DNA of 64,000 bases from assembly GCA_021798985.1 (NCBI GenBank), contig JAJZBI010000015.1:1-64000 (forward strand), written 5' to 3'. Position numbers and translations under genes: made by a program. This document shows positions 32,716 to 44,540 of the stretch, in pieces. Source of the DNA: Actinomycetes bacterium (GTDB lineage Bacteria > Actinomycetota > Acidimicrobiia > Acidimicrobiales > Bog-793). Every line of letters begins with the position of its first letter. Within the stretch, counting starts at the first letter, position 1. A model generated the notes under the pieces. It saw only the letters and a list, made by a program, of their open reading frames with translations. It was not told the origin of the DNA and ran no database searches.

Positions 32716-33103
32716 GAGCGAGTGCGAGCCGTGAGCCTGGGTGCGGGCGGCGGGTGAGCGCGCCGTCCGCACGATCGAGTTCGCCGGAGGTATCGGCCGC
32801 GCCGAGCTCGGTGTCGAGGCCGCGGTGGTCAGGGTCGCCGTCGCCTTCGAGGAGCGGTGTGCGGCCCCCGTCGACTTCTGGCTCGACACCGCCAATCGGC
32901 GCGCCCGGCGCAACGAGCGGCTGCGCGGCGCCCGTTCTCCGCCGGGGTGCGCGCCCGGCAAAGGGGTGCCGGCGCCAAGCGCGGGCGCTCGACGACCGCG
33001 TGCTCGACGGTCTTGGCGCGACGCCCTGGCCGCGGCCGCCAGGCGCTTGTGGCCCCGCTGTGGTAGAGGCTGCAGGTCGGTGGCGGCGGGTAGAGACGAC
33101 GTG
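32716..33103. other. gap between dnaB and the aspartyl-protease-like gene
   Basis: About 390 bases without a convincing gene. One plus-strand frame is continuous with the next gene but lacks similarity and has no clear start. I see no repeat or RNA structure worth naming. Confidence 0.4.
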
Positions 33104-34105
33104 GTGACGCGACGCCTCTCCTTGCGACGAAGTGCCGCAGGCGCTCTGTGTCTCGCGAGCGTGGCGTACGCGGGCGCCGCGGGGCTCGCCACCACGCCGG
33201 CGGCGGCTACTGCGGCAGTCCGCCCGCGCGCAGCGGTCTCCTGCGCGGTGGCGCGCGCGCTGCCGGAGCCGATCCCCGTAGCGGTGCACCGTGTGGGGCG
33301 CGGGACCGTGTTCGTGGCCGGTGTGTGCATTGACGGGCGCGGCCCGTTCCCCTTCATCGTCGACTCCGGGTCGGTGCAGAGCGTCGTCGCCACCGCGCTC
33401 GCACGGCGCCTGCGGCTCGCGAGCGCCGGTCCCGCCTTACAGGCCGAGGGGATCTCGTGTCGCGAGACGGTGCACCCCGCCCGGATTGGGCCCTGGTCAC
33501 TCGGGCCGATCGCCCTCGCCCCTCAAGAGGTGCTGACGGCGGTCCTGCCCCGCCTCTTCGGCATCCGCATCGACGGGCTCCTCGGCTCGGACGTCCTCAG
33601 CCGCTTTGGCGCCGTGCGCCTCGACGCCACCCGCCACGCGCTCTTCGTCGCCGGACCCGAGCGCAGCTTCGCTGTTGCGGCGCGCGTCCGGCTGCCCTCC
33701 GCGCTTGCCCGCGGGAGCGTGACGCGGGTCCCGCTCGCCGTGGTGCGCCGGGGTGGACGGGTGATCGCTCTCACCGACGTGGTCTTCGGCAGCGACGACA
33801 GCCAGTTCGTCGTCGACACGGGGGCGGTCGTCTCAGTGGTGTCGGCGGCCACCGCCGCCGCGGCAAGACTGTCCGCCGCTCCCGGACACCTCGAGCTCGC
33901 CGCGGTCGGCTGCACCGCCCGCCTCGGTGAGGTGCACAGCGGGCGCTGGCGCCTCTCAGGCACGACGCTGCGGCCGGAGCGGCTCGGGCGACTGCGGCCC
34001 GGAGGGATCGGCGTCGCCGGTCTCCTCGGCTCGGACGTGCTGCTTGCCCACGGTGCGGCGGTGCTCGACTACGCCGGGCATGCCCTCATGCTGGCGCGGG
34101 GCTGA
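33104..34105 (+). CDS. exported retropepsin-like (twin aspartyl) protein
   Basis: 333 residues from GTG 33104 (GTG 33101 is equally possible). A Tat-like or Sec signal (RRLSLRRSAAGALCLASVAYAGAAGLA) precedes two similar halves. Each half has an aspartyl-protease motif, VDSGS (Asp87) and VDTGA (Asp238), each followed by GLLGSDVL (about 158-165 and 309-316). This is the pattern of single-chain, internally duplicated retropepsin-like proteases (clan AA). Substrate unknown. No obvious operon partner. Confidence 0.8.
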   Translation: MTRRLSLRRSAAGALCLASVAYAGAAGLATTPAAATAAVRPRAAVSCAVARALPEPIPVAVHRVGRGTVFVAGVCIDGRGPFPFIVDSGSVQSVVATALARRLRLASAGPALQAEGISCRETVHPARIGPWSLGPIALAPQEVLTAVLPRLFGIRIDGLLGSDVLSRFGAVRLDATRHALFVAGPERSFAVAARVRLPSALARGSVTRVPLAVVRRGGRVIALTDVVFGSDDSQFVVDTGAVVSVVSAATAAAARLSAAPGHLELAAVGCTARLGEVHSGRWRLSGTTLRPERLGRLRPGGIGVAGLLGSDVLLAHGAAVLDYAGHALMLARG

Positions 34106-34227: not shown

Positions 34228-35400
34228 TCAATCGATCGCGTCGGGGGTGACGAAGATCGGCTCCGCGAGCGCTGGGCCACGCCAGTTCGCCAGGCGTTCG
34301 AGCAGGCTCTCCGTGACGACGTAGCCGCGGCTGATGATGAGGCGGCCCGAGCCGTCATAGACGTCCTCTTCGATCCTCCAGCCGACTTGGAGGTCGGCGG
34401 CGACGACGGGTCGCGGCTGGCCCGGCACGCCCCCCCCTCCGGGGTCCTCGATGAAGCAGGCGAGGAGCTCGGGGTCGTAGTCGTCCACGTCGCGTGCCAA
34501 GGCGCCGAGCGCATTGCGGCGGGCGACGCCGCCCGCCTCGAGGTGCTCGAGGGCCGTGGCCACCCGCAGCATCTGGCCACCGAGCGCGATCGACGAGCGG
34601 GGCTCGCCGTAGCGACAGCGCGCGTAGGGCACCTGCTGGTTGCGGATGATCTGGCGGACCGCCTCGAGGCGCGGAATGGAGGAGAGCAGACGGTCGCTCA
34701 GCCGCGGGAGCTCGTCGACCTGTGCCCGCTCGTCGTCCTCGAGCGGCAGCCCGCGGTGCAACTTGTCCACCGTCTCGGGAGCAAGGACGACCGTGCCGAG
34801 CTGCGCCAGCATCGCCGCGACCTCGATCTGCCAGGCGTCTTGGGGCTGGAGCGCCTCGATGAGGTGGCGCACGAGCGCTTGGATGCGGGTCGCCCGGGCG
34901 AACGCGACCGGATTCGCGAGGGCGAGCGCGTCGGTGAGCGCCGCCACGCTGCCGCGCAGGGTCTGCTCGAGGAGCTCGCGCTCGGCCGTCACGGCACGGT
35001 GGAGGGCCACCGCATCGTTGAGCGCCGCCCGGAGCTCGGCGCCGCTGCAGGGCTTGGTGAGGAACCGGAAGATGTTTCCCCGGTTGACCGCCGCGATCGC
35101 AGCGGAGAGGTCCGCCTGGCCGGTGAGCAGGATGCGGGTCGTGTCCGGGCGAAGCGACCGGGCATGGGTCAAGACCTCGGCGCCGTCCATCTCGGGCATC
35201 CGCATGTCGCACACGAGGACCGCAAATTCTGCCGACGTCTCGAGCAGGCCAAGTGCGGCGGCACCCGACGTCACGCCGGTCACCTCGAAGAGTGCGTGCA
35301 GCTGGCGCGCCAGCGCGTCGACGACCGCTTGCTCGTCGTCGACGCAGAGGATCTTCGGCAATGTCTTGATGGCCGTTCCCGCCGGAATCGACAAGGTCAT
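34228..35400 (-). CDS. response regulator: REC plus degenerate HD-GYP-like domain
   Basis: 390 residues. REC domain (about 14-130): ILCVDDEQ, phosphoacceptor Asp65 in VCDMRMPEMDG, FLTKP with the conserved Lys. A helical link leads to a domain (about 165-330) with the layout of HD-GYP phosphodiesterases, but the metal-binding His-Asp is replaced (AQLGTVVLAPETVDKLH), and the GYP position reads RYGEP. It is therefore probably not a c-di-GMP hydrolase. A tail of about 60 residues ends it. The start overlaps the REC-HDOD gene by four bases (ATGA), so it is the last gene of a three-gene operon. Confidence 0.82.
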   Translation of the reverse strand: MTLSIPAGTAIKTLPKILCVDDEQAVVDALARQLHALFEVTGVTSGAAALGLLETSAEFAVLVCDMRMPEMDGAEVLTHARSLRPDTTRILLTGQADLSAAIAAVNRGNIFRFLTKPCSGAELRAALNDAVALHRAVTAERELLEQTLRGSVAALTDALALANPVAFARATRIQALVRHLIEALQPQDAWQIEVAAMLAQLGTVVLAPETVDKLHRGLPLEDDERAQVDELPRLSDRLLSSIPRLEAVRQIIRNQQVPYARCRYGEPRSSIALGGQMLRVATALEHLEAGGVARRNALGALARDVDDYDPELLACFIEDPGGGGVPGQPRPVVAADLQVGWRIEEDVYDGSGRLIISRGYVVTESLLERLANWRGPALAEPIFVTPDAID

Positions 35401-36560
35401 GGCTCCTCCTCGAACAGTCGGCTCGCCGCGAGCTTCCAGCGGCGCAGCTCGGGATGATGGATTGCGGCGGCGAGGTCCTCGTGACCGGGGACCGCCGACA
35501 GTTCGGCGTCGAGCGCGTCGGCGACCGCGAGCACCTGGTGGGCCCCTGCCGGTGAGGCGAACGCCGCCACGGGCATCGGCAGGGCTCGCCGTGCCCGCTC
35601 GACCAGCTCGCAGACGCCGCTCGGCAAGCCCCACAGTTTGAGCAGGTACTGACCGATTCGCGCGTTCTCGGCGAGCTGCGTCTCGCCGTTGCCCGGCGCC
35701 GCCCCACACAGCACCGTGGCCGCGAGCACCCCGACGTCGTGCAGCTGGCAGGCAAGCTGGAGCTCGGGGGACGGCGGAGTGCCCTGGAGGTAGCCGACGA
35801 GCCGGCTCACGCGCCGGGCGTGCGCGGCCAGCTTGCCGGCCACGATGCCGACCGGTGTGGGCGCGGCCACCGCGAGCGTGCCGATCTCCATGAGGGTGCG
35901 CAGGTTCTGCGTGCCGACGCGCTCGAAGGCCGCCGGCACTGAGCTGAGGCCCGTGAGGAGGCCGAAGAAGGCGCTGCTCGCGAGCTGCAGCACCTTTGCG
36001 CTGATGCCGACATCGCAGGCGATCGCGCTCGCCACGTCAAGGGGCGGCTCGTCGCTCGAAAGCGCAGCGCGCAGGTGCCGGCAGGTGGCGGCGGGGCTCG
36101 GTAGGCAGTCCATGCGTCCGAGCTCCCCGCGCACCGCAGCATCGGCCACGTGGCCCTGGGCGGCGACGATGTCGCGGATGACGCCGGCGAGCGCGTCTGC
36201 TCCGATCGGCTTGCTCAAGAACCGGTGCGCCAGGCCCGAGCTGACCAGGGCGGCGTGCGCGTCGGTCTGCCCGGAGAGCACGACCCGAGCGGCACCGGGC
36301 GCTTCGGTGCGGGCGTGCGCCAGCAGGCTCGCCCCGTCCATCTCGGGCATCCGCATGTCGGAGAAGACGGCGTCGACGCGCCGCGCCCTGAGGACTTCGA
36401 GCGCGGCCGCACCCGAGCTCGCAAAGACGAGCTCGCAGCCGGCGCGGCCCCGCGACAGGGCGCGGCGCAGCCCGGCGAGAACGTTCTCGTCGTCGTCGAC
36501 GAAAAGGATTGTCTTCGGCTCGCCTTCCGGGGTCGGCGCGCCGGCGCGGGACGTGTTCAC
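35397..36560 (-). CDS. response regulator: REC plus HDOD domain
   Basis: 387 residues. REC (about 16-135) has ILFVDDDENV, Asp68 in FSDMRMPEMDG and the RFLSKP lysine. The HDOD domain (about 150-350) shows CLPSPAATCRHL, the DVGISAKVLQLASSAFFG helix and CQLHDVGVL. HDOD domains are non-hydrolytic relatives of HD domains used in signal output. Its start overlaps the upstream kinase by four bases and its stop overlaps the next gene, so all three are coupled. It is a likely phosphorylation target of that kinase. Confidence 0.88.
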   Translation of the reverse strand: MNTSRAGAPTPEGEPKTILFVDDDENVLAGLRRALSRGRAGCELVFASSGAAALEVLRARRVDAVFSDMRMPEMDGASLLAHARTEAPGAARVVLSGQTDAHAALVSSGLAHRFLSKPIGADALAGVIRDIVAAQGHVADAAVRGELGRMDCLPSPAATCRHLRAALSSDEPPLDVASAIACDVGISAKVLQLASSAFFGLLTGLSSVPAAFERVGTQNLRTLMEIGTLAVAAPTPVGIVAGKLAAHARRVSRLVGYLQGTPPSPELQLACQLHDVGVLAATVLCGAAPGNGETQLAENARIGQYLLKLWGLPSGVCELVERARRALPMPVAAFASPAGAHQVLAVADALDAELSAVPGHEDLAAAIHHPELRRWKLAASRLFEEEP

Positions 36561-39500
36561 GCGATCGTGGCCTTCGCGGCGCCGTTGCGGGCGGTCGGGG
36601 GAACGAGGGGTAGCCAGAGCGTGAACTGGGTGCCAGACGTCGAGGTGTCGACGTCGATGCGGCCGTGGTGACGGTCGACGACGGTGCTCCAGGCGAGGGC
36701 CAGGCCCTGGCCGGTTCCCTGCCCGATCGGCTTGGTGGTGAAGAAGGGCTCGAAGATGTGGGGCAGGACGTCATCGGCGATCCCCGGGCCGCTGTCTGAC
36801 ACCGTGATGGTCGCGAACCCGGTGCTGGTCCCCGTCGCCACGGCGATCTGGCCCCGCTCGCCCGGCTGGTTCGTCTGCGTCACGGCGTGCGCGGCGTTGA
36901 CGATGAGGTTCAACAGAACCTGGCCGACCGCCCCGGGATAGCAGGTCACCGTCGGAAGCTCGCCGAGCGAGAGGTCGAGCTCCGCGACGTACTTCGTCTC
37001 GTTGCGGGCCACGGTGACCGTGTTCGCGACCACTTCGTTGAGGTCCACCGGCTCGGGGTCCTCGCGGTCGGGATGTCCAAAGGCCTTCATCGCCCGCACG
37101 ATGCGGGCGACTCGCTCGACGCCCTCGAGGCTCTGGGTGATCGCGGCGGGGACCTCGTCGAGGATGAAGCGGAGGTCCGTGGCGTCATCGGCCCGAGGCG
37201 CCGTCGGCATCTCCCCATCAGGCCGCCCTCCAGAGGCGAGGGCGGCTTGGACGGCGGGCCACGAGTCGGAGAGGAACGTCAGATTGTCGGCGATGAACTG
37301 GGTCGGCGTGTTGATCTCGTGGGCGATCCCCGCCGCCAGGCGGCCGAGGGACTCAAGCTCTTGAGCACGGCGCAGGTCTCCCTCGAGCCGCAAGCGATCG
37401 GTGACGTCCTCGACGACGGCGACGCGCGAGGCGCCGCTCCCTGAGCCGTCGAGGACGTGCACGCCGGTGACCCGCACGATGCGGGCGGCTCCGTCGGAGC
37501 GGTACAAGACGTGCTGCTGGCTCCGGGCGCGGTCCGCGGCGGGAAGGTGAGGCAGGCTCGGGCCCGGCGCTTCGACGGCACGATCGAACAGCGCGTCGAG
37601 CGGCTGGCCGTAGAGTTCCTCGCTCGGCCGGTCAATGATGCGGCAGAAGGCCGGGTTGACATCGACAATTCGGCCCGAAGCATCCAGCCGGTAGATGCCG
37701 AGCGGGACCTGCTCGAGGAGGCTCTCGAATCGGCGCTGGCTCTCGGCAAGGGCGCGCTGGGCCAAGTGGCGCGTCGTGATGTCGAGGTGGGCGACCACCG
37801 CCATCCCGACGTGTCCGGCGAGCGGTGAGGCGACGAGGAGGAACTGGCGTTCCTCCGTCGGGCTGTTGCACGGGTACTCGAGGGAGAAGGCGTCCCTGCT
37901 CCCGCCGAGGACGGCGCGGATCCCGCGCCCGGCGAGCTCCGCGATCTCGGCGCCCTCGCCTCGAGACGAGGCGCACACCGACAAGTAGTTCGTGCCCACC
38001 CCGCAGCGGCCGGCGTCGCCGCCGTTGTCCAGCGCGAAGCGCTGCCAGGCGACGTTGGTGGCGACGATCGTGCCGTCCGCGTCGATCACGGCGGCGGAGA
38101 TGGGCAGCGAGTCGAGGACCGCCCAGCCGACCTCGCGCGAGCGAACCGAGAGGCTGAGGGGATCCACCGGTGTCGGGCAGCGAGGCTTGCTCGGCAGCGC
38201 CCCTTGGCGTTCGGCGAGGAATTCGCTGAACTCGAGGGGCGGGAGCGGCTTGGAGAACAGGTAGCCCTGCGACAGCGAGCAGCCGAGCTGGCGCAGCGCG
38301 TCCAGCTGCGCGGAGTTCTCGACGCCCTCGGCGGTCGTCACGAGCCCGAGGTCCCGTGCCAGCGCCACGATCGCCCGTACGAGCGCGGTCGCCCCCGGGT
38401 CACGGCTCAGTCCGGCGACGAACTGCTTGTCGATCTTGATGGCGTCGATCGGGAACTTCTCGAGGTAGGCGAGGGAGGAGTAGCCCGTGCCGAAGTCGTC
38501 CAGCGACACGTGGGCACCCATGCGGCGCAGCGCCAGCAGCGTCTTGAGCGCCGTGTCGGTGTCTCGCACGAGCGCCGTCTCGGTCACTTCCAGGTTGAGG
38601 CAGCCGGGGTCAATCGCCGAGCGCTCGATCGCCTCGGCCAGCACGCCCACGATCCTGGCGTCGGCGAGATCGGTCGCCGAGAGGTTGATCCCCACGCGAA
38701 AGTCCGGCGGCACGGCGCCGCTGCGCCGCCACTCGGCGAGCTGGTCGCACACGTGGTCGACGATGCGGCGCGTGAGCGCCTGGATCGTCCCGATCGACGT
38801 CGCCGCCTCGATGAAGGTGTCGGGTGGAACGGGACCCCGGGTGGGATGGACCCAGCGAGCGAGCGCCTCGCATCCCACGCATCGGCCGTCGCCGACCTGG
38901 ACGACGGGCTGGTAGGCGACCTCGATCTGGTCGAGCTCCACGGCCCGGCGCAGGTCGTGCTCGAGCTCGAGGCGGTCGCGCAGTGCCGCGAGGTCGCGGT
39001 CTTCGAACAAGACGGTGTGCCCGCCGCCGGCGCTCTTGGCGCGGTGGAGCGCGAGGTCCGCGTTGCGCAGCAGGCTCTCGGCGCTCGCCACGGCGCCGGC
39101 CGTCGCCACCCCGGCGCTCGAGGTGAGGTAGATCCGCTTCTGGTGGACGAGGAGATCCCCCGAGGCGGCGTTCGCCAGCCGGTGCGCCACGTCGAGTACC
39201 TCCTCGACGGCGTGGCAGTTCTCGAGGAGCACGCCGAAGGTGTCACCGCCGATTCGGGCGACGGTCATGCCGCCGCTCACGGACTCGAGGCGGTGTCCGA
39301 CGCTGCAGAGCAGGTCGTCGCCGAGCGCGAAGCCGTAGCTGTCGTTGACGGAGTTGAAGGCGTCGACGTTCACGGCGACGAGCGCCACGATCGCGTTGCC
39401 GAGCGCCTGGGAGCGCACCAGCGCCTGGCCGATCCGGTCGCACAACAGCGCCCGGTTCGGGAGCTTGGTGAGGGGATCGAGCAGCGTGAGCTGGGCGAGC

Positions 39501-40279
39501 GCCTCGGTGGCGCGCCGCTGCTCGGTGATGTCGGCGAGCGTGGTGACGACCCGGATGTCGGTCGGCGCGCCCGCCGAGGGGACGGCGATGGCGTTCACTG
39601 AGAGCCAGCGCACGCTGTCGTCGGGCTGGATCACGCCGATCACGCTGCCGCGGATGGCGCGCCCGCTCTCGAATGCCTCGCGGGAGGGGTGCTCGCGCGG
39701 CGGCAGCGGCGTGCCGTCGCTCCGCACGAGGAGGTGCGGCGGCTCTTCGAGGAGCTCGTCGACCGTTCTCGGGCGGTAGCCGAGCAGGCGCCGAGCCGCT
39801 TCGTTGAAGTACAGGACGCGCCCGGTGCGGTCGTGGATCGCGACGCCCTCGTGCAACGCGTCGACCGCCCATGCGAACTGCAGGTCGCGGGCGCCGAGAC
39901 GCTGATGGGCGCTGCGCCGCTCGATGGCGTGGCGGACCGCGGTCACCACGTTGCCCGGCGAGGTCCGCGAGGCGACGAGGTAGTCGTCGGCACCGAGCCC
40001 GATCGCGTGGCTCGCCGCGTGCTCGTCGTCGAGCTCGCCCACCACGACGACCGCCGGTCGGGCTTGGGCGCCGGGGATCCACGCGAGCGCCGATTCGTCG
40101 CCGCGCAGGTGGACCACGACGCAGTCAACGGGTCGAGCTGCGAGCAGCTTGGCGGCCGTTTCGACATCGGTCACCGCGCAGACCGCGAGGTCGCCCGCCG
40201 CTTCGAGGTGCTGGCGCGCCCGGGTCGCGTCCGGACAGTCCTCAAGGACGAACACCATCGATACCGCAGCGACTTCCAT
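36557..40279 (-). CDS. composite sensor: REC-like, PAS, degenerate GGDEF, EAL, PAS, PAS, histidine kinase
   Basis: 1240 residues from ATG 40279. In order: REC-like (about 8-118, with LEDCPD but no clear phosphoacceptor), PAS (about 135-255), GGDEF (about 264-430) with the site degenerate as GGDTF (344-348), EAL (about 436-690), PAS (about 718-838), PAS (about 848-965), HisKA with [12 protein letters not shown] (His at about 987) and HATPase_c ([26 protein letters not shown]). The EAL site looks complete: [27 protein letters not shown] and QGYLFSKP, so it can probably hydrolyse c-di-GMP, while GGDTF is unlikely to make it. It forms an operon with two REC output proteins. A TATAAT box lies at 40402-40407. 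Cytoplasmic; no membrane segment seen. Confidence 0.88.
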
Positions 40280-40401
40280 GCACCGCTCCACTCGCACACC
40301 GGCGCAGCGGACCGGTTCCCTTGGCTGCCGGAGCGTCTTGCCCGCGACAACACCGCGCCGCGCAAAGACGGGAGCGCCACACGGCAACCGCGCTACGTAA
40401 C

Positions 40402-40421
40402 ATTATAACCACGTACCGTGG
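40402..40421 (-). promoter_or_regulatory. promoter with palindrome upstream of the signalling operon
   Basis: On the minus strand a perfect -10 box TATAAT (40402-40407) lies about 125 bases before the sensor start. There is no -35 match; instead the inverted repeat CCACG-TAC-CGTGG (40409-40421) abuts it, which would suit an activator or repressor. The rest of 40280-40625 holds an AT-rich patch around 40508-40528 (TAAATATTACG) that could be the promoter for the divergent gene at 40626, and nothing else I recognise. Confidence 0.5.
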
Positions 40422-40625
40422 CGATGGGATGGCTGGCCCGCGCTAGCTCCGGCGCGCGGACCGCCGCAATGGGGCGCCAGGACCGAACCATCCCGACGGC
40501 ATGCCACTAAATATTACGAAGTGATAACAGGCCGCGCGTCCGCGGCCCATAGGCGGTCCCCATGATGGGGGCACCGGGTGCCCGGACGTGGCGACCCGGG
40601 GGAGCTCACGGAGAAGGGGGCAGCA

Positions 40626-42924: not shown

Positions 42925-43875
42925 TCAGTCCGGCAGCGGTGGGTCCTCGAGGAAGTCGGCCGTCGGGACGAAGAACAACGACCCGGTGACCGCCCGCGAG
43001 AAGTCGAGGATCCGGTCGCTGTTGCCCGGGGGGTCGCCGATGAACATGCGCTCGAGCATCGTCTCGGTGATCCGGGGCGAGCGCGAGTAGCCGATGAAGT
43101 AGGTGCCGAACTCGCGCGACCCGAGCCGGCCAAAGGGCATGTTGTCGCGCAGGATCTGGAGCTCCTCGCCGTCGGGCCCCTCGATGACGTTCAGCGCGAC
43201 GTGCGCGTTGGCGGCCTTGACCTCGTCGGGCAGCTCGACGTTGGAGAGCTTGGTGCGGCCGATCGCCCGCTCTTGCTCCTCGACGCTCAGCGCGTTCCAT
43301 GCGTCGAGGTCGTGCAGGTACTTCTGCACGATGACGTAGCTCGATCCGGCAAAGTGCGGATCCTCCTCGCCGACGGTGACGGCCGCTGCGGCGCCGTCGC
43401 CCACCGGGTTCTCCGTGCCGTCGACGAAGCCAAGGAGGTCGCGGACCTCGAAGTACTTGAAGCCGTGCACCTCGTCGACGACCTCGACCGCTCCCGCGAG
43501 GCGGTCCATGATCTGGCTCGCGAGCTCGAAGCACAGATCAATCTGCTCGGCGCGGATGTGGAAGAGGAGATCTCCAGGCGTCGAAGGGGCATGGTGGCGC
43601 TCGCCGTTGAGGGCGCGGAATGGGTGCAGCTCGGCGGGCTTCGGCCCCCCGTACAGGCGGTGAAAGACGGCATCGCCCACGCCCGCCACCACGGCGAGGC
43701 GGCCTTCGGGGACGCGAAAGCCGACCGTCCGCTGCAGGCCAGCGAGGTCGGCGAGCAGGTCGCGCACGGTCGCCGCTTGGCCCCCATGCACCGTCGCGAC
43801 GAGAAAGATCGCGTTCGTCGTGAGCGGCGTGAGCACCGGCTGGCGGAGCGGGCGGGATGCTTCAGTCGGGCTCAT
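42925..43875 (-). CDS. DyP-type heme peroxidase
   Basis: 316 residues from ATG 43875. Family marks are GFVDGTENP (distal Asp of the GxxDG motif), NAHVALNVI (proximal heme His) and FGTYFIGYSR (distal Arg). DyP peroxidases oxidise dyes, phenols or porphyrins with hydrogen peroxide. There is no twin-arginine signal, so it is cytoplasmic, and no encapsulin gene lies nearby. GAGG precedes the start; the frame extends upstream without similarity. Confidence 0.92.
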   Translation of the reverse strand: MSPTEASRPLRQPVLTPLTTNAIFLVATVHGGQAATVRDLLADLAGLQRTVGFRVPEGRLAVVAGVGDAVFHRLYGGPKPAELHPFRALNGERHHAPSTPGDLLFHIRAEQIDLCFELASQIMDRLAGAVEVVDEVHGFKYFEVRDLLGFVDGTENPVGDGAAAAVTVGEEDPHFAGSSYVIVQKYLHDLDAWNALSVEEQERAIGRTKLSNVELPDEVKAANAHVALNVIEGPDGEELQILRDNMPFGRLGSREFGTYFIGYSRSPRITETMLERMFIGDPPGNSDRILDFSRAVTGSLFFVPTADFLEDPPLPD

Positions 43876-44540
43876 CGACACCTCGGCTCTCTGGGCGAAG
43901 GAACGGCCAGACACTACTGGCGCTCACCGGCCGAGCCGATGTGACCATTGGGGGCGCTTGTTCCCGCCCGCAGCCCGGGCCGGCAGGTCGTCGAGCTCGC
44001 CGGCTGGTCCAGGGCGCGCTCCTGGTGCTCGCCTCAAGGAGCATGCCGGCCCATCCCCATTCCCCCTCCGCCGCTCGAGCGTTCGCAACCCCGTGGACGC
44101 TCCAAGGCTCGGCAGGGAGCGCTGCGGATGGTTCGCGACCAGTCCGCGTCGATACTCCTCGACCGGCGAGGCGCCCGGCGCCTCGCCCGTGGGGCCCTTG
44201 CGCCATCGTCGAGCGGGCAGGCAAAGCGGCGCCAGTGCGCGCCCTTGGGCGAGGCACCGGCCTCGTGGGCAAGGACGCCCGCGCGGCCCGCAGGGACGAC
44301 CACCGAGGCGATCGCTCGCGCGTCCACCAGCTCGCGTCGCGCTGCGCCGCAGTGCGCGCCGAGCGCGATTTGTCCGGGCCGGGACCTGATCCTCGTCGTC
44401 CCGCGACCTGGCGCTTATGCTCTAGGCCTTGACGGCGCATCCCGTTGTCCCCCCGGTTCGGCACTGGCCGCGGCCAGCTCCCGGTCGCCTGGGTGGTCAC
44501 GCGCGCTCGAGGTCGAGACTCGAGAACACGAGGAGGCTTG
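43876..44540. other. 665-base region without a convincing gene
   Basis: Long frames exist on both strands but are Arg/Pro/Ala-rich with no domain. TATGCT at 44414-44419 and TTGACG at 44430 could belong to a promoter for the NCS1 permease, though their spacing is not canonical. I see no known riboswitch. Confidence 0.4.

Follow-up and report, generated by a model that had tools for sequence, protein, structure and literature searches.

HnoD, a response regulator with a degenerate HD-GYP domain, is without phosphodiesterase activity; it keeps the EAL enzyme HnoB suppressed until the kinases act (reviewed in PMC6335343 and PMC8846402). NosR, also a degenerate HD-GYP regulator, is phosphorylated by NosK (PMC12570481). 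The HDOD response regulators DVU0330 from Desulfovibrio and GsmR from Xanthomonas have been assayed, and no c-di-GMP activity was found (PMC4114195). Fusions of a kinase with an EAL domain are already known as well, among them the HisKA-EAL proteins of Caulobacterales (PMC9756655). Here we describe an operon in which parts of these kinds are found together, located in a 64,000 nucleotide stretch of DNA (the window) from an actinobacterium of the order Acidimicrobiales.

Organization of the locus

By ORF reading of the window, the operon consists of three minus strand genes (40279-34228), each junction being a four-base overlap (GTGA and ATGA). In brief, gene 1 (36557..40279, 1240 aa) encodes a protein with the domain order pseudo-receiver, PAS, degenerate GGDEF (GGDTF), intact EAL, PAS, PAS, HisKA (HEINTPTQ) and HATPase_c. 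Gene 2 (35397..36560, 387 aa) encodes a REC-HDOD response regulator; its GTG start lies in a 4-base overlap with the stop of gene 1, and the junction reads gcGTGAac. Gene 3 (34228..35400, 390 aa) encodes a REC domain followed by a metal-site-less, HD-GYP-derived domain and a conserved C-terminal extension; its ATG start lies in a 4-base overlap with the stop of gene 2, the junction reading gccATGAcc. The preliminary description had named a 1240-residue sensor, a REC-HDOD protein and a second REC protein, this one with a degenerate HD-GYP, and had linked them by four-base overlaps. Coordinates and junction sequences bear out the overlaps, and the domains were found as claimed. The overlaps suggest translational coupling, which we count in favour of one relay.

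The sequence GAGGAGGA is located immediately 5' of gene 3, and GTGGAG directly 5' of the gene 1 ATG. The region upstream of gene 1 (40280..40577, minus strand) extends to a divergent plus strand ORF with its start at 40578; it contains TATAAT at about 40400 and no full promoter consensus. No promoter- or terminator-like sites matching a simple consensus were found between the three genes, and this is weak evidence for one unit, because promoters of this lineage may not match that consensus.

In the downstream flank, opposite strand genes converge on the operon and were recognized by eye as a DnaB-like and a protease-like ORF. The ORF at 32741-34105 (plus strand), convergent with the operon, carries by eye two aspartyl-protease-like motifs (FIVDSGS and FVVDTGA) and appears retropepsin-like and internally duplicated. 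A Dyp-type peroxidase gene, also assigned by eye, is located at 42925-43914 on the minus strand.

The sensor kinase

Pfam matches in gene 1 include GGDEF (4e-29), EAL (1e-72), several PAS domains and HATPase_c (1e-20), and the N-terminal REC is sub-threshold at 16.7 bits. The phospho-Asp position of this REC is occupied by H (VVVHLRGD); judged by this residue, the first domain is an Asp-less pseudo-receiver. The GGDEF domain is degenerate: its active site reads GGDTF and not the GG(D/E)EF of diguanylate cyclases, and an RxxD I-site is absent from it. The H-box His and the N, G1 and G2 boxes are all present, identifying gene 1 as a histidine kinase. No transmembrane stretch was seen in gene 1 by eye.

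The EAL domain (38246..38956, minus strand) has every catalytic and metal-binding residue of the motif set (EALARW, NLS, EVTE, DDFG, KIDK, EGVE and QGY) and is likely to be catalytically active. No other domain encoded in the operon is predicted to act on c-di-GMP, since the GGDEF domain is degenerate and the HD-GYP-derived domain of gene 3 is without a metal site. The removal of c-di-GMP that the preliminary description placed in the same chain would fall to this domain, whose intact motif set is the evidence for it.

The two response regulators

Gene 2 scores 65.6 bits for REC and 50.6 bits for HDOD (gathering score 22.9), which classifies it as an HDOD response regulator. Direct reading of the gene 2 and gene 3 receivers showed that both retain the DD acidic pocket, the phospho-Asp D and the S/T and K positions. 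In the HDOD domain of gene 2 the first His and the HD are retained and the later HD ligands are lost. We considered that the paired HDOD might always be a second dead domain and rejected this, as all six HD ligands are retained in 37/84 paired or related HDOD domains, though not in gene 2. In a PDB sequence search, genes 2 and 3 matched receiver domains, and 3m1t was returned for HDOD. When the predicted structures of gene 3 and gene 2 (pLDDT 91 and 89) were compared by fold, the matches were almost exclusively receiver domains; the comparison was uninformative on the output domains, which were for this reason judged by sequence profiles.

Gene 3 comprises REC, HD_5 (1.7e-19) and a C-terminal extension some 65 residues long. 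The metal ligands are gone, the HD column having become A-Q and the HH column Q-Q, and the GYP motif is absent. It does not classify as an HD-GYP phosphodiesterase, and calling it a degenerate HD-GYP was correct. Its anatomy is of the HnoD type, an intact REC phosphorylation site joined to a catalytically dead HD-GYP. The gene 3 family aligns with intact-site HD-GYPs over 243 columns, the C-terminal extension included (hhalign E 1.9e-38), indicating shared descent. The HD parts of REC-HDOD and gene 3 match weakly (hhalign probability 54%), which weakens the idea that the two are recent duplicates.

Of 65 HD sequences aligned together, 16 have an intact HD pair, and the genes paired directly with REC-HDOD are without intact HD and HH pairs. 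The only intact REC-HD-GYP seen near a REC-HDOD is located two genes further on, in Methylomonas (L060). Other positions are strongly kept in the gene 3 family, namely an invariant W, R and G, TLxGS, AAMLSQIG, NIPRLE and the C-terminal extension. Because these are kept while the metal site is lost, the family appears to be conserved for a role other than c-di-GMP hydrolysis. The window's gene 3 is among the most degenerate members, with the GYP loop lost too. Elsewhere, one gene 3 homologue (L045:8480-10948) runs on into a weak GGDEF (92 bits), a further fusion type, and in two loci (L185 and L186) one REC-HDOD gene is followed by two gene 3 homologues in tandem.

Conservation of the gene set

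A scan of gene 2 against 84,980 species genomes returned 80 loci. Neighbours within 2.5 kb were counted for the 52 REC-HDOD genes that had 2.5 kb or more of sequence on either side, excluding the window's own; same-order loci were included, as were a few loci that contributed two REC-HDOD genes. A REC-HD partner was present for 37/52, a kinase for 41/52 and both for 32/52. The titles of the full-set loci name Planctomycetes and Phycisphaerae, Lentisphaerae, Acidobacteria/Terriglobia, Desulfobacterota, Clostridia, Alpha- and Gammaproteobacteria, Myxococcales, Fimbriimonadaceae, Anaerolineaceae and Actinomycetota. The set of kinase, REC-HDOD and REC-pseudo-HD recurs across about ten bacterial phyla.

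The ranking of the gene 2 scan may gain slightly from the neighbouring receiver, and we therefore also approached the set in reverse, from gene 3. A profile built from its HD and C-terminal parts, leaving out the receiver, was searched against 395 genomes from the class and 396 from the phylum, and 17 loci were fetched. REC-HDOD directly adjoins gene 3 in 16 of these 17 actinobacterial loci, and a kinase is located beside the pair in 12. The exception (L201) is a 3.6 kb contig with just 2.1 kb available upstream. The preliminary description had left it to a search of other genomes whether the set is conserved outside this strain; it is, by the 32/52 as well as the 16/17 loci.

The clusters L095-L117, mostly beta- and gammaproteobacterial, contain GGDEF-EAL-REC, a stand-alone HDOD, a kinase and a REC-HD-GYP that is often partly degenerate. 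They are a parallel arrangement of the same parts.

At the phospho-His, HEINTPxQ was found in 48/66 kinase matches within 300 bases of the pair vs 11/33 further away; several of the misses arose because the search pattern truncated the box, and many of the more distant matches belong to the same cluster. The gene 1 kinase carries an H-box of this type (HEINTPTQ). Tree distances for 45 loci correlated at 0.61 for HDOD and kinase, 0.47 for pseudo-HD and kinase and 0.41 for HDOD and pseudo-HD, values reached by 0/2000 permutations. This is support and not proof, because shared ancestry alone can yield such values and transfer also confounds mirror-tree comparison.

EAL domains fused or linked to the set

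Searching the 395 genomes of the class with gene 1 gave only one other near-full-length case (G015), from the same order and 41% identical over residues 217-1231. At its locus (L028) the three genes are together despite rearranged strands, and the EAL catalytic residues are complete as in the window. A MAG filed as Micromonosporaceae (L055) encodes the REC-HDOD/REC-pseudo-HD pair followed by a GGDEF-EAL-kinase in which both GGDEF and EAL are dead and the kinase is intact. Kinases fused to GGDEF-EAL are rare, occurring in the window, this one same-order relative and the MAG with the dead EAL. The fusion at L055:2350-6360 has a hydrophobic N-terminus, which is probably membrane-embedded.

Separate EAL genes were also found beside the set, as REC-EAL in L071 and L078, as GGDEF-EAL in L049 and L200, and as REC-GGDEF-EAL convergent with the set in four Sedimenticola loci. 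An EAL gene is present within 2.5 kb in 8/52 REC-HDOD neighbourhoods, several of them from one genus, and the association of EAL with the set is modest. Since an EAL gene is missing from the vicinity of most loci of the set, a linked EAL cannot be a requirement of the core relay, and the fusion need not be enzymatic, because the fused GGDEF-EAL of L055 is catalytically dead.

Proposed function and alternatives

We suggest that gene 1 is a soluble sensor kinase that would take its input via the Asp-less pseudo-receiver and the PAS domains and phosphorylate the REC domains of both gene 2 and gene 3. That both are phosphorylated by gene 1 is likely; we infer the match of kinase and receivers from gene order, and kinase type and conservation also point to it. 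One relay, from PAS domains and kinase to two REC proteins, had been proposed in the preliminary description; conservation of the set strengthens this proposal, with phosphotransfer itself as its predicted step. The EAL in the gene 1 polypeptide would hydrolyse c-di-GMP. Gene 3 would be a non-enzyme, switched by phosphorylation and acting by binding a partner, as HnoD does and NosR presumably does; the likeliest partner is the gene 1 EAL. That gene 3 regulates an EAL enzyme is a tentative proposal, with a somewhat less than even chance of being right. Gene 2 would serve as a second, protein-binding output. As a whole, our best explanation is a single two-component relay that ends in two receiver proteins, with a kinase-PDE fusion and a binding partner for gene 3, and we put its prospects at about even. 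It is unlikely, though worth stating, that the locus belongs to an unnamed widespread relay in which one HEINTPxQ kinase drives two HD-superfamily receivers, an HDOD and an obligately dead HD-GYP, the latter serving as phospho-switched inhibitor of an EAL phosphodiesterase that is here fused to the kinase. If this is true, kinase, enzyme and inhibitor would form a closed feedback unit in this organism.

The main rival, suggested by SgmT, treats GGDEF-EAL as an input: binding of c-di-GMP or GTP, with slow turnover, would tune the kinase, which would report the c-di-GMP state to the receivers, and the targets of gene 3 would be unrelated to the EAL. Inputs are usually located N-terminal to the kinase. 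GGDEF-EAL precedes the kinase in gene 1, and this position of the EAL counts against reading it as an output. The GGDEF of gene 1 is moreover degenerate, and in L055 an intact kinase follows a GGDEF and an EAL that are both dead. SgmT itself is a histidine kinase with a GGDEF domain as c-di-GMP receptor (PMC3509222), but it uses the RxxD I-site that the window's GGDEF is without. The gene 1 EAL also keeps all its catalytic residues, unlike the pure receptor LapD (PMC3509222), and we regard the input reading as somewhat unlikely.

The outputs of the core relay might also lie outside c-di-GMP signalling, for example in protein-protein control of motility or stress proteins, with the EAL fusion an accidental recent addition of little bearing on the receivers. 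Most core-set loci are without a nearby EAL gene, the tested HDOD regulators DVU0330 and GsmR had no c-di-GMP phosphodiesterase activity (PMC4114195), and the whole genome to which the window belongs (G000) gave no PilZ match despite 22 GGDEF and 17 EAL matches. The organism thus probably relies on c-di-GMP receptors of types other than PilZ. We nevertheless consider outputs of this sort quite unlikely, given that the GGDEF-EAL-kinase fusion occurs in a pair of same-order genomes as well as a distant MAG, and given the separate EAL genes linked to the set in unrelated lineages and the HD-GYP ancestry of gene 3. A genome this rich in such genes, with 3 HD_5 matches besides those of GGDEF and EAL, could place a c-di-GMP enzyme next to two response regulators with no common pathway. 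The four-base overlaps speak against such chance neighbours, and the same set in many phyla already contradicts them, which makes this explanation highly improbable.

Comparison with known systems

We found no description of the three-gene set in the open-access literature searched, which leaves out most subscription journals. The relay is apparently undescribed as a set across phyla, the window holding a kinase-PDE fusion variant of it. The undescribed system announced in the preliminary description holds in this sense for the set; kinase-controlled degenerate HD-GYP proteins (HnoD, NosR) and HDOD regulators (DVU0330, GsmR) were known.

The studied proteins closest to gene 3, likened to it by function, are HnoD and NosR, degenerate HD-GYP regulators of nitric-oxide circuits. 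In the HnoK/HnoB/HnoC/HnoD network of Shewanella oneidensis, as proposed here, a kinase feeds several response regulators, one of them a degenerate HD-GYP (HnoD), and an EAL (HnoB) is part of the circuit. Unlike in that network, EAL and kinase share one polypeptide in the window, the EAL is without a REC that could be phosphorylated, and a REC-HDOD protein is present in the operon. The NosP-NosK-NosR system of Burkholderia likewise combines a kinase with an operon-encoded REC/degenerate HD-GYP regulator. Gene 3 matches the NosR model (NF053512) at 192.5 bits, below the curated cut-off of 400, and is thus not filed as NosR, which itself reads HG-GTP. The published nosRPK differs from the window's operon in having a FIST sensor and no HDOD regulator (PMC12570481).

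Like DVU0330 and GsmR, gene 2 is an HDOD-type response regulator; unlike gene 2, whose HDOD has lost its later ligands, these two are not described in a set with a degenerate HD-GYP regulator (PMC4114195). Gene 1 resembles SgmT of Myxococcus and the HisKA-EAL proteins of Caulobacterales in joining c-di-GMP domains and a histidine kinase in one polypeptide (PMC3509222, PMC9756655). Unlike gene 1, SgmT has just a C-terminal GGDEF with an I-site (PMC3509222), and in the passages considered a REC-HDOD/REC-pseudo-HD pair is not reported with either type of protein (PMC3509222, PMC9756655).

Most of what is known of degenerate HD-GYP regulators comes from nitric-oxide circuits, and here a whole metal-site-less family travels with REC-HDOD and a distinctive kinase through about ten phyla. 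A non-enzymatic role of such regulators becomes testable by comparison of loci, and the kinase-EAL fusion offers a compact setting for testing the control of EAL enzymes by degenerate HD-GYP regulators. Kinase-EAL fusions, degenerate HD-GYP regulators and HDOD regulators are each already known singly; their combination as a conserved three-gene set is apparently the new part.
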